Below, piece after piece: positions 37,736-41,990 of a DNA stretch of 64,000 bases (position 1 is the stretch's first letter; each line of letters starts with the position of its first letter). The stretch comes from Lepidurus packardi (taxonomy: Eukaryota > Arthropoda > Branchiopoda > Notostraca > Triopsidae). The notes beneath the pieces are model-generated. The model worked only from the letters and a program-made list of their open reading frames with translations, was not told where the DNA came from and did not search any database. The DNA is taken from assembly GCA_023053545.1 (NCBI GenBank), contig JAKZAN010000002.1, forward strand, positions 10,536,790 to 10,600,789, read 5' to 3'. Made by a program: the position numbers and the translations under genes.

Positions 37736-40700
37736 ATGGAGAACTTTACCTTCGTGCTGGCTTTAGCGTTAGCCATAGTGTGTGTAGCATGGGCGCTGCC
37801 GCATTCGGTAATTCACACCAAATTATCTATTTCTAATTTTTGGCATGATTTATAATGGGTCAAGGGGCGTTTAGGCTGCCTAGTTAGCAAAGCTTGTGAC
37901 AACACAGTTTTTTGGCTTGGGGTTTTAGGGGCGAATGGCTAGACATAAGTTAAGCAATACAAAAGTTTGGCAACCCGAAGAAATTTCATCCGAAGCAGAC
38001 CTTTGGTGGAAAACCGGAATCGTGTACCAAATTTATCCTCGGTCTTTCCAAGATAGCAATGGAGACGGGGTTGGCGACTTGAAAGGTAATAACACGACCT
38101 GTCCTCTAAATAGATTAGCTTTAATTTTCTTGTTTTTGTGCTCTCATTGTGCAAGAAGAAAAAAGGTCACTACACTGATTACTGTTTAGCTATTTTTGCG
38201 GTCAGATTACTGATCAGATAACTTTGGAATTTGAGTAACACATCATTGCATAACTGGAGCACTCGCCAGCCCGACCTTTTCTTGTTTACATCTGAAAGCA
38301 GCAAGAAGTGTGCCGCGTATTTCAATTACGTTGTAGGAGGCGCCTAGCGATCCGCAAGCCGCGCAAAGCTGCATTTAAAAAATGTTGCAGGAGGGGAGTA
38401 ACGATCCGCAGAAAACCATTCCAGAGCCTTATTTTGCTTAAAACTGGGCATTTTAGGTTAGGTTACGTTAGGTTGGTTAGGTTACTCTTATGGTTCTAAG
38501 CACCCTTCGGCGTACACCGCGACAAAGCATGGGGGAGAATAGATCACGTGCAGCGCTGCGAGGTTTTGCGCGGTTTGCTGAAAATTATAGACAGCAAAAA
38601 AACAAATGGTGGAGATAACCTAACGTGCAAAATAAAAACGGTCACGTTTGTTATTTCAAGCGGTTTTTTTTTAGCGAATGCGCTTAAGCACAGAAGTTTG
38701 GACAAATCGAGCGAGCTACATGTATCGTCCTTCCTCTTTCCTCTCCTTCATCGACCATTCCTGCGCCTCCCAGCCGTTTATAAGCCCGTCTACGTTACGT
38801 GTCTTTGGCCCTTCCAGGTTTCTGCGGGTTTCACTTTGGACGCAGAAGGCAGGGCAGAAGGGATACGGAAGCTCGGCAAGTGAAGTCCATCTGGCTCGCC
38901 TAGCTGCCTAATCTGTTTTCGTGTTCTAGTTACATACAGAGTTAACGTTTAATCTTCTAAGTATTTTATCATGGAAAACGAGAATTACGCGGGCGTGAAT
39001 CCCCAGTCTTCGAGCAAGTCTCCTTCTATGGAGATGGCGAGTCCCACTGCTAATAACGACGAGACGACTTTAACCGTGTCTGAAGATGCAACAAAAGTGA
39101 AATTTACGTCAGCAGCCGAAGCTGCCGATAGTTCGTCTAAAAATGGCGAAGCCAAATTGGAAATTGAAAACGTGGAGGTCGCTCTTGGTGGAATGGGGAA
39201 AGAGGAGCTTATGAAATACGCGAATGACCCTTTCTGGGTTCGATTGCGTTGGTTTTTCTTCATCCTCTTTTGGCTAGCTTGGTTAGCGATGCTGGCGGCA
39301 GCCATTGTAATTATTGTGCTGGCCCCGAAATGCGAAGCTCCCTTGCCTCGCCAATATTGGCAGAAAGGCCCAGTTTATCAAGTTTACCCCAGATCTTTTC
39401 AAGACTCGGACGGGGATGGCGTTGGTGATCTCAAAGGTGGTGGCCTTGTTACAATCGTAAATTAATTATGCATTCTTTCTGCTTCATTGTTTCAAGAACT
39501 TCGAATCGTAAATTAATTTATTCAACCTGGCAGAGTTTGATCAGGCTTATAACGTTATCAGATGTTGACCTGATATAATCATAAAATTCTTCAGTAACGT
39601 CTTACGTTACTATTTGCTTTTCTTCAACAGTAACAATGTTTTTATGTCTGATTAGGAATCGAAAACAAACTGGATCATTTGGTTGACCTTGGAGTTAATA
39701 TGGTATGGATATCTCCTTTCTTTAAGTCCCCAATGGTCGACTTCGGATACGATATTAGGTAAAATTCAACATAATTAATTGGATTAAGCTAAACACCCTT
39801 GTAGCTCTTTTATAGACGTAGACCCCATCTTTGGGACTATGGAAGACTTTGATTCACTGATGACTGCCGCTACTGCCAAAGGGTTGAAGATTATTCTAGA
39901 TATGGTCCCTAATCACTCCAGTGACCAACACGAATGGTTCCAAAAATCTATTATCAAAGAAGAACCGTATACTGATTATTACATTTGGAATGATGGTAAA
40001 GTAGCGGCCAATGGCTCCCGCACTCCGCCTAACAACTGGGTTAGTAAATTAGCATATCAAGTGTAGATGCAGTATTTATCCCAGTTCTCGTTCTTTAGAT
40101 GAGCGTTTTTGGAAACTCGGCCTGGGAATGGAACGATGAACGACAGCAGTATTATTATCACCAGTTCACTGTTGGACAGCCCGATTTGAACTATCGTAAT
40201 CCTAAAGTTGAAGAGGAACTTAGGGTACGTTATCTTACAGAGCTTGGAAATAAAGATAGTTCAGACAGTTCAATTAAAGCGGATTGCTTCCATAAAATTA
40301 AAATGTTTTAATTTGTGTATAGGAGATTTTACGCTTCTGGCTTAAGAAAGGCATTGCTGGATACCGTTGTGATGCTGTTCCTCATCTGTTTGAAACTACA
40401 GAATTGCTCGACGAGCCTCCTATTGCTAATGCTACTTTAAGTGGATACACTCCTGACCAGTGGGAATACTATTCTCATCCTTATACCTGGAACCTCCCTG
40501 AAGTCTACGATATTATGCTCGTTATTCGAGAGACACTTCAAGAATTCGAAGATGTCGATGGCGACCACAGGTAAGAACTGCAGATTACTAGAAAAGAATC
40601 GAAAAAAATACTTTAAGAGTAATTTGAATTATGAGTCTTTCAAAATCTGAACATCTAATTTTGGTGTTAATTGCCTTTTAATGAATAAAATACGGAATTG

Positions 40701-41990
40701 TTTGGTTACAGGGTGATGTTGACCGAAGCGTATGTGCCAATCGATGACGTAATGAAGTATTATGGTAATGAAACGGTCCCCTTGGCTGATTTCCCCTTCA
40801 ACTTTGGCCTGATCGACCAAATTAAAGCCAATTTTACGGGTATTCAGTTGGGCAACACTATCCAGGAGTGGTTTGAAAAAATGCCAATATTTGGTTGGGC
40901 AGATTGGGTGGTAAGTTTATCCTGTTTTTTTATTAACTTTTACTTGGAGTACTGCTTTCTTGGAAATCAGTGTCTGGGTTGGAGACTAAAATCTATGTTT
41001 AACAGTTGGGTAACCACGATAACAACCGTGTGGGCAGCCGAGTTGGCGAAGAATTAGTGGATGCCCTTCATATGGTGACCATGTTACTACCGGGCACCCC
41101 AGTTACCTATTATGGGGAAGAAATTGGCATGACCGACACGTTCATTTCTTATGAGGACACTGTTGATCCCAAGGCTTGTCACTTTGGACCCGATAAGTAT
41201 ATGCTGTATTCTAGAGATCCTGCACGTACGCCCTTGCAATGGGATGACTCCAAAAATTCAGGTACCTTTGTTTACATTGTGTTCAGTTATTTATTTGTTC
41301 ATCAATCTGTGTTGTCAAGGTTTCTCCACGGCGGACAAAACTTGGCTACCCGTTAGTGCCAATTACACAGCAGTAAACGTCAAGGCGCAAAAAGAGGCCT
41401 CGGTTTCGCATTTGAAAGTGTACAAGGCTTTGGTGGAGCTACGCAAAAGTCAAGCCGTCCAATATGGTGAATTGGCGTATCCTGTTATTGACAATGATGT
41501 GTTTTCATTCACACGGTAGGTGTTCTTTTTACTTACAGAGATTTATCAAAATTTTACTCCTATTCATTTTTTCTCTTTTAACATGCTCCCCGATAGCACT
41601 TAGTAAGTCAAGTCTAATTTATTTAGGTTTACCTTCTTTAATATTTAACGTTTACTATTTAAGCTAATTTTTTTTATTATTATCATTATTTTGGTAGTAT
41701 TCGACCAGGATCACCTGGTTATCTGGTGGCGATCAACGTAGGCTCCAGTGACTTGACACTGAATTTCTCCAATGCTACCGGTGTCGCGTCTGAAGCTACG
41801 GTAGAGATTAGAAGTATTTATGCGATGAATCCGGATACAGCCCCAGGGTACTTTACTGAAGTTCTATTGAAGAGCATTTTTAGAAGTTTATTCTCGGCTT
41901 TATAGGTCAAAAATAGCTACTAGTGCTATACCTTTGGGGCCTAAAGAGGGACTAGTCTTGTCATTCGTCCCGGTGTTTAATGAGGCTTAA
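37736..41990 (+). CDS. Alpha-glucosidase (maltase), secreted isoform
   Basis: GH13 enzyme hydrolysing alpha-1,4-glucosidic bonds of maltose and sucrose-like sugars. Exons: 37736-37807, 37929-38085, 39656-39758, 39805-40039, 40099-40224, 40323-40570, 40712-40910, 41006-41261, 41320-41515, 41698-41847, 41906-41990; 608 residues. Exon 1 encodes a signal peptide ([20 protein letters not shown]). The barrel starts with [19 protein letters not shown]. The catalytic acids are all present: Asp in GYRCDAV (exon 40323), Glu in MLTEAYV (exon 40712), Asp in GNHDNNR (exon 41006), with the substrate-site His in VPNHSS. Identity as a GH13 maltase is firm; the join of exon 1 to exon 2 rests on phase and GT-AG sites. 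Confidence 0.88.
38086..38970 (+). promoter_or_regulatory. Intron of secreted isoform; presumed promoter of membrane isoform
   Basis: This 885-bp region lies between the two alternative exon sets and must include the start site and leader of the membrane transcript. It contains a TTAGG-like tract (38452-38488). The sequence GCGCTTAAG...TATAAG near 38770-38790 could hold a weak TATA element, but this is uncertain. No other coding sequence was found. Confidence 0.4.
38452..38488 (+). repeat. Interstitial TTAGG-like telomere-type tract
   Basis: Degenerate TTAGG/GGTTA units (TTTTAGGTTAGGTTACG then TTAGGTTGGTTAGGTTA). TTAGG is the arthropod telomere repeat; short internal copies can arise at repaired breaks or within transposons. 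Confidence 0.6.
38971..41990 (+). CDS. Type II membrane (SLC3A/CD98hc-like) isoform of the same GH13 locus
   Basis: An alternative first coding exon, 38971-39436, has the same donor phase as 38085 and joins the same downstream exons from 39656, giving 687 residues. It encodes an acidic, Ser/Thr-rich cytosolic tail, then [18 protein letters not shown] and a transmembrane helix at about residues 95-117, ending in the APKC motif (Cys 121). In SLC3A proteins a Cys at this place links to the light-chain transporter. The ectodomain keeps all three catalytic acids (about D327, E398, D464), unlike mammalian 4F2hc. It could be a heavy chain for amino-acid transporters, a membrane maltase, or both. The exon carries its own version of the barrel start ([20 protein letters not shown]), so the two 5' exon sets are mutually exclusive. 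Confidence 0.88.

Follow-up and report, generated by a model that had tools for sequence, protein, structure and literature searches.

A Lepidurus packardi maltase gene with two predicted alternative 5' ends, one secretory and one of the SLC3A2 membrane type

A single GH13 gene of Lepidurus packardi, lying on the forward strand of a 64,000-nucleotide stretch of contig JAKZAN010000002.1 (the window), probably has two alternative 5' ends, so that one maltase body would be made either as a secreted enzyme or as a type II membrane heavy chain. The upstream set A comprises exon A1 (37736..37807), which is delimited by its ORF and splice borders and contains the start codon, a signal-peptide-like leader and a phase-0 donor, and exon A2 (37929..38085), which is delimited by splice borders and a Pfam match and contains a pro-region, the maltase barrel start and a phase-1 donor. 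Exon B (38971..39436) encodes a cytosolic tail, a transmembrane (TM) helix, an APKC cysteine (Cys121) and an alternative barrel start, and also ends in a phase-1 donor. The shared exons that follow were defined by the gene model, joined for the first eight by spliced alignment and for exons 4 to 6 by motifs as well. Exons 1 (39656..39758; acceptor score 10.4) and 2 (39805..40039; VPNHSS motif) encode barrel, exon 3 (40099..40224) the QPDLNY motif, exon 4 (40323..40570) the catalytic nucleophile D327 in GYRCDAV, exon 5 (40712..40910) the acid/base E398 in TEAY, and exon 6 (41006..41261) the third acid, D464 in GNHDN, together with GEEIGM; these are followed by exon 7 (41320..41515), exon 8 (41698..41847; C-terminal domain) and exon 9 (41906..41990), which holds the stop codon. 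All three acids, numbered here as in the B-start protein, are present, as the preliminary description had stated.

Every exon of both models has GT/AG borders and the expected phases. Set A (72 + 157 nt) and exon B (466 nt) both leave a remainder of one on division by three, and both terminate in AAA-G, continuing as GA-ATC at 39656 (K-G-I-E); joined to the nine shared exons, they yield uninterrupted reading frames for proteins of 608 aa from the A start and 687 aa from the B start (pB). Spliced alignment over 37901-42010 recovered the same intron borders, its query being the A protein from residue 45 to the end, which hence starts inside A2 and stops three bases before the stop codon. The earlier proposal that A and B end at one splice phase and can join the shared exons from 39656 is thereby borne out. 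These exons, phases and motifs, and the conservation of both first exons, are legible in the DNA itself, and the 38085/39656 and 39436/39656 junctions are predicted from it; two first-exon sets would thus join one acceptor in one phase, both in open frame, which is the pattern of alternative first exons.

Set A looks like a functional secretory start. Its leader reaches a hydropathy of 3.27 in a 12-aa window, and exon A alone matches Pfam Alpha-amylase at E 1.2e-4, exactly at the family cut-off of 22 bits, in agreement with the initial reading of A1 and A2 as a signal peptide and GH13 barrel start. The A1 and A2 donors score 7.1 and 9.4, values reached or exceeded by 8 and 3 of 277 GT sites, respectively, and the A2 acceptor scores 9.0. 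At the protein level, A2 is identical to the paralogous maltase P2 at 23 of 27 aa. Over these 27 codons, at two of which A, B, P1 and P2 all differ, private residues number two in B and none in A, P1 or P2; two of 81 nucleotides are private to A, and the third-position excess between A and P1 (9/18) is not significant (p 0.11). With no private residue and its last donor among the best three of 277, exon A looks alive. We consider it improbable that A1 and A2 are what remains at the 5' side of a tandem maltase that recently lost its body, leaving mRNA from B and the shared exons alone to encode a plain membrane heavy chain. Such a history would suit the position of A upstream of a complete alternative start, and a dispersed repeat in the stretch separating A2 from B (about 38256-38636) could have mediated the deletion. 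The presumed promoter of A, in the gap between the INTS7 stop codon and A1 (37303..37735), is moreover unclear, because five out-of-frame ATGs lie between two initiator-like TCAGTT sites (37463 and 37477) and 37736. However, no GH13 relic of a lost body was found in the A2-B interval (38086-38970), every A splice site is intact and strong, and A fits the shared exons in phase and position and has no private residue over the 27 codons. A repeat-mediated origin of the arrangement was also considered and set aside, as the same dispersed repeat is the sole sizeable feature between A2 and B, and is not diagnostic.

Exon B is of a different character. The protein pB contains Pfam SLC3A2_N (PF16028; E 1.6e-34) ahead of Alpha-amylase (PF00128; E 7.8e-139), and its hydropathy peaks at residues 98-116, just before Cys121, predicting a single TM helix and an extracellular cysteine. 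The cytosolic tail, TM helix, APKC cysteine and separate barrel start ascribed to 38971-39436 in the preliminary description are all recovered. The best PDB match of the exon B N-terminus is human 4F2hc (E 1.5e-18), with no strong match to rBAT (E about 0.1), and by sequence comparison this N-terminal exon resembles 4F2hc and not rBAT. It shares with SLC3A2/4F2hc/CD98hc the order of an SLC3A2_N tail and TM segment, a juxtamembrane cysteine (APKC here, APRC in human) and a GH13-fold ectodomain. Across the assembly, an SLC3A2_N exon was found at a single place, which is exon B; its donor is weak (3.1, a score attained by 41 of 277 GT sites). A search of viral contigs for an SLC3A2-type segment gave 32 pattern matches and no confirmed one, while a general contig collection gave at least 593 pattern matches, of which at least 492 were confirmed and 80 kept. 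None of these was accepted as an exon B homologue, because the titles of the kept matches name prokaryotes and most span just the barrel-start end of the query, a few beginning as far forward as residue 6.

The two barrel starts are identical at 21 of 27 aa, yet 15 of the 21 codons for the same amino acid differ; 20 of the 31 differences fall at third positions (p 0.0004), and synonymous sites are saturated between A and B (NG86). The claim that these 5' exons are mutually exclusive is supported by the sequence: from 38118, downstream of the A2 donor, to the start codon of B there are 60 AG sites, none of which would give an open A-B-shared frame; within B, 15 of 28 AG sites would keep the frame open, but each product would duplicate part of the barrel start. 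As B has its own start codon, and as no open A-B-shared splice is available via an upstream acceptor, the choice of start would be made by promoter use. A promoter upstream of 37736 would drive an A1-A2-shared transcript encoding a secreted, signal-peptide maltase (alpha-glucosidase); another, upstream of 38971 and presumably within the A2-B interval (38086..38970) along with the 5' UTR of B, would drive a B-shared transcript encoding a type II membrane protein whose cytosolic tail and TM helix are of SLC3A2/CD98hc type. Through its cysteine, this B isoform would be disulfide-linked to SLC7 light chains, and its extracellular part would be the same maltase body, still catalytically equipped. 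From the features above we infer both transcripts, together with secretion, membrane insertion, light-chain pairing and activity.

The shared body is maltase-type in sequence. It retains 67 of 69 residues that are invariant in 13 maltase-type sequences, the catalytic D/E/D triad among them, against 53/69 in human rBAT and 27/69 in 4F2hc; seven GH13 motifs are present, under the names that we take them to carry. In phylogenetic analyses the body is sister to P1 + P2 (support 100/99), and is no faster-evolving than either (branch lengths 0.27 for the body, 0.41 for P1 and 0.31 for P2), the three falling beside insect maltases in the best trees, though only at 82/85. Trees that unite the body by itself with human 4F2hc or with human rBAT were rejected (p-AU 0.0005 and 0.0008, respectively). 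A clade of body, P1, P2 and 4F2hc gave p-AU 0.085 with 13 rows and 0.033 with 14, 4F2hc and a further heavy-chain gene on C4 forming long branches, and the corresponding clade with rBAT gave 0.125 (13 rows). It is the test of the body+P1+P2+4F2hc clade, and not the pairing of the body alone, that an ancestral origin needs. Placement in a GH13/SLC3A tree, as suggested in the preliminary description, thus joins the body firmly to P1 and P2, and neither demonstrates nor excludes the 'intermediate state' proposed there.

P1 and P2, which lie on the chromosome that carries the locus, are both dedicated secreted maltases. They have the A-type layout of a phase-0 leader intron (read by eye) and a barrel exon, and spliced alignment indicates that all nine body introns are common to the three genes. 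Collapsed tandems are a familiar type of assembly error, and this assembly is not clean, its smaller contigs carrying intronless, bacterial-looking ORFs. A merger of near-identical tandem genes, one with A and one with B ahead of its own body, nevertheless seems very improbable, as the contig around the locus is 13.5 Mb long and keeps the P1/P2 tandem (72.5% identical) apart as two genes. A nuclear COI copy, read with code 5, has a seemingly branchiopod-like sequence. We give slightly less than even credence to a chimeric history, in which an SLC3A2 first exon came secondarily to share a maltase body; with p-AU values of 0.085 and 0.033 for the maltase group placed with 4F2hc, this history is a proposal. 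A dual-use ancestral locus, from which P1 and P2 budded off and lost exon B, seems somewhat less likely. The leader/barrel/body intron structure common to all three genes, the mere 63 and 47 bp that P1 and P2 have where B stands here, the saturation between A and B, from which their co-existence may be old, and the lack of clear rejection of body+P1+P2 with 4F2hc or rBAT are all consistent with it; the position of this group with insect maltases in the best trees, albeit at 82/85, is not, nor is the sand-fly CD98hc, which is reported (PMC8063059) to fall outside the alpha-glucosidase clade and to lack catalytic residues.

Whichever history applies, the use of one catalytically equipped body in two topologies, as originally put forward, is supported by the sequence. 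Since its exons are common to both isoforms, the body would be held catalytic, barred from drifting to a non-catalytic state like that of human and sand-fly CD98hc unless the secreted enzyme were destroyed. We tentatively suggest that the B isoform is both a CD98hc-type exchanger heavy chain and a working surface alpha-glucosidase, while the secreted isoform keeps the active site intact. If so, then amino-acid transport and sugar digestion would be tied via shared exons. An SLC3A2 N-terminus on a nearly fully conserved maltase body would offer a system for asking if a heavy chain can be an enzyme, and exon sharing with a secreted enzyme would let one ask if exon sharing or transporter function decides catalytic loss. 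A single alternative first exon is, further, a concrete route by which a secreted enzyme and a type II membrane protein can be linked.

Arthropod GH13 maltases, including the Aedes salivary alpha-glucosidase, Bombyx SUH and Culex Cqm1, have the same body, motifs and triad at 40-46% identity. To our knowledge, none of these genes has an SLC3A2-type alternative first exon, and in the literature searched we noticed no SLC3A2 gene with a secreted product. According to PMC8063059, membrane forms of sand-fly alpha-glucosidases are anchored otherwise, by a predicted TM segment or GPI, and soluble forms are suggested from loss of the last exon. Human 4F2hc is described in PMC8537225 as without domain B and the catalytic acids, and 4F2hc ectodomains as non-catalytic relatives of alpha-glucosidases; the body here, in contrast, keeps the acids and nearly all invariant residues, and its sister group consists of the maltases P1 and P2. 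SLC3A1/rBAT and the sand-fly NBAThc are likewise type II heavy chains, and the rBAT ectodomain, according to PMC8537225, retains the three acids with no activity found, but rBAT differs in its lack of a strong match to exon B and its smaller complement of invariant residues. The second SLC3-like heavy chain of this genome, on C4, is rBAT-like and apparently non-catalytic; it is the better candidate for an rBAT/NBAT-like gene than the B-shared locus, and, having lost catalytic residues, provides a contrast within the same genome. Given P1, P2 and the C4 heavy chain, neither isoform would be the sole one of its broad kind here. As for putative partners, a six-frame pattern search found four places with SLC7-like segments carrying a cysteine in what we take to be the candidate heavy-chain loop.

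The locus lies on the plus strand (the window spans C2:10536790-10600789; the genome totals 108.56 Mb over 344 contigs), downstream of its plus-strand neighbour INTS7, whose open reading frame with the INTS7 C-terminal domain stops at 37302; judging from sequence, it is most likely an alternative-first-exon gene. Exons A1 (37736-37807, a hydrophobic leader) and A2 (37929-38085, the barrel start), or exon B (38971-39436, an alternative 5' end), precede a body of nine shared exons, the first starting at 39656 and the last closing with the stop at 41990, all on the plus strand. As the preliminary description had it, A2 and B end in the same phase, here found to be phase 1, and both continue in frame into the exons from 39656, giving predicted proteins of 608 (A-form) and 687 residues (B-form); a spliced alignment begun within A2 returned intron borders identical to those of the gene model. 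The A start would yield a secreted maltase, and the B start a type II surface protein in which a tail, transmembrane segment and cysteine of the SLC3A2 type are set on the same maltase body. The mutual exclusivity proposed for the two 5' ends is supported by sequence: from A2 to the start codon of B, 0/60 AG sites allow an open A-B-shared reading, and although 15/28 AG sites within B would keep the frame open, every such product would duplicate part of the barrel start. Promoter use would thus be the simplest way of choosing between A and B. Counting against a tidy promoter A are five out-of-frame ATGs between initiator-like TCAGTT sites (37463, 37477) and 37736, implying that transcription of A may start nearer the gene, or that its 5' UTR may contain an intron. 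Between A2 and B, a dispersed repeat occupies 38256-38636, and its stretches match at least about 50 assembly places at 71-88% identity.

The reading of exon A as leader plus barrel start was borne out: A1 reaches a 12-residue hydropathy of 3.27 and ends in AWA-LP, and A2 carries the barrel start. Two dedicated secreted maltase paralogues, P1 and P2, form a tandem pair at C2:5.467-5.473 Mb (L007, C2:5464000-5473500) and are 72.5% identical over their aligned region. By eye, both begin with a leader exon, phase-0 intron and short barrel exon, and in spliced alignment the position and phase of nine body introns are common to P1, P2 and the window gene (the P2 alignment also contained a very short surplus terminal exon, a fitting artefact replaced by hand for the 15-row tree and the splice-site matrix). 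Because P1 and P2 have like 5' ends and introns, A1-A2 is, at the level of sequence, a genuine maltase-type 5' end. The intron corresponding to the site of B spans 63 bp in P1 and 47 bp in P2. In a comparison of 27 codons, A and B have 21/27 residues in common, yet 15/21 of the same-residue codons differ, and 20/31 nucleotide differences fall at third positions (p 0.0004); A shares 23/27 residues with P2 (third positions 9/14 differences, p 0.017) and 21/27 with P1 (9/18, p 0.11, not significant). Residues private to one sequence, i.e. differing where the remaining three agree across these codons, number 0 in A, 2 in B, and 0 in both P1 and P2, with a four-way difference at 2/27 sites; private nucleotides by the same rule number 2, 11, 1, and 0, respectively. 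Scored with a matrix derived from the window gene, P1 and P2 (28 donors, 26 acceptors), and ranked among 277 GT sites in 37400-42000, the A2 donor reaches 9.4 (3/277 sites as high), that of A1 7.1 (8/277), and that of B 3.1 (41/277); the A2 and shared acceptors score 9.0 and 10.4. The leader-intron donors of P1 and P2 are both low, at 2.0. When the window was searched at the protein level (E up to 10), no remnant of GH13 turned up in the stretch separating A2 from B. No signs of decay of 37736-38085, the alternative raised previously, were seen in private residues or in the strength of the A2 donor; exon A appears to be constrained, and on sequence alone a recent loss of its use is a minor possibility.

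Exon B is the sole place in the assembly at which SLC3A2_N was found, over residues 60-136 of the B-form (Pfam, E 1.6e-34), followed by Alpha-amylase over residues 137-594 (E 7.8e-139). Among PDB sequences, 4F2hc is the top match of the N-terminal 133 residues (E 1.5e-18), with rBAT at E about 0.1. Hydropathy is maximal at residues 98-116, and of the three cysteines (121, 326, 517), Cys121 lies immediately outside the predicted membrane segment. Six-frame reading of 15 loci placed SLC7-like light-chain segments at four distinct places (L133, overlapped by its neighbour L136; L135; L145; L146), each with a cysteine in its candidate heavy-chain loop, a stretch which we take to be equivalent to the heavy-chain loop of LAT.

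The three catalytic acids (D327, E398, D464) are intact, as previously claimed, together with H227, H463, and R325. The body retains 67/69 columns invariant among 13 sequences (P1, P2, three insect enzymes and eight bacterial ORFs), compared with 53/69 in human rBAT and 27/69 in human 4F2hc; each reference, omitted in turn, retains 69 of 69-78. Sand-fly CD98hc is reported to lack catalytic residues and to fall in an amino-acid-transporter clade separate from alpha-glucosidases (PMC8063059). Human 4F2hc is described as without domain B and the catalytic acids, and rBAT as retaining the acids but inactive when examined (PMC8537225).

P1+P2 form the sister group of the body in a 13-row tree (100/99); the insect maltases come next (82/85, not starred), and a 15-row tree omitting 4F2hc gives the same P1/P2 grouping. 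From the common fork, the body branch (0.27) is not longer than the paths to P1 (0.41) and P2 (0.31), so branch lengths in the 13-row tree give no sign of relaxed constraint on the body. With P1 and P2 held outside, the body alone could be paired neither with 4F2hc (p-AU 0.0005, 13-row tree), nor rBAT (p-AU 0.0008), nor both (p-AU 0.0012). Weighed on this one genome, a secondary origin of the dual arrangement is tentatively preferred, at somewhat short of even confidence; that it is ancestral, and preserves an intermediate of SLC3A evolution as the preliminary description proposed, we consider a credible though slightly less probable reading. Set against a simple secondary chimera, no clear rejection was obtained for the groupings of body+P1+P2 with 4F2hc (p-AU 0.085 with 13 rows, 0.033 with 14, 4F2hc being a long branch) or with rBAT (0.125, 13 rows), or of all arthropod maltases with 4F2hc (0.211, 13 rows). 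This maltase group and 4F2hc may thus share a more recent ancestor. Long branches lead to 4F2hc (3.57, 13-row tree) and to the C4 gene, an rBAT-like heavy chain (5.94, 14-row tree). We recognised no description of such paired first exons in the portions of the family's literature available, including PMC8063059, PMC8537225, PMC7487162, and PMC5388851; public gene annotations may already show such an arrangement.

The genome has two predicted SLC3-like heavy chains, with SLC3A2_N and a catalytic body joined in the window gene only. The second, the C4 gene (L016:1261-2622, roughly 1.666-1.667 Mb on C4), consists of a 454 aa open frame in which a TM-like stretch and a cysteine (PTNCDP) accompany a GH13 barrel (PF00128, E 7.8e-23); its top PDB matches are rBAT (E 1.3e-25) and 4F2hc (E 4.7e-16). 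A Pfam search of the frame found no SLC3A2_N, and by eye its catalytic motifs are lost, with GFYLKG in place of GYRCDA. In both respects it resembles sand-fly NBAThc, reported to lack both the SLC3A2 domain and catalytic residues (PMC8063059). A genome search with a 141 aa segment of P1 (E up to 10) returned the three maltase-type genes and three weak matches (E > 0.2) on C44 and C135, and is not a full census, since it missed the C4 gene. Four further GH13 places (L017, L025, L027, L034) resemble, partly by eye, pieces of glycogen branching/debranching enzyme and alpha-amylase. The smaller contigs C42, C43, C44, C52, C55, C60, C135, C214 and C239 carry long ORFs free of introns, of GH13, COX1 or permease type, and are probably bacterial sequence in the assembly. 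Many nuclear COX1 copies with TGA codons and other stops, which we read as abundant mitochondrial insertions, lie at L042-L044 and further places on C1, C2, C4, C5, and C6.

Elsewhere in the window, the intervals at about 14.0-20.2 kb and 20.2-26.4 kb form a direct duplication of roughly 6.2 kb, its copies 6198 bp apart, with a 300-nt reference 100% identical and ORFs recurring at the same offset; both copies contain a satellite of period 80-81 bp. Part of a retroelement lies at 31147-33048 on the plus strand (633 aa open frame; RVT_1, E 3.3e-38; weak zf-RVT match), and segments of a GW182 M-domain and of GH47 lie at 1466-2029 on the plus strand and 47226-47708 on the minus strand, respectively.
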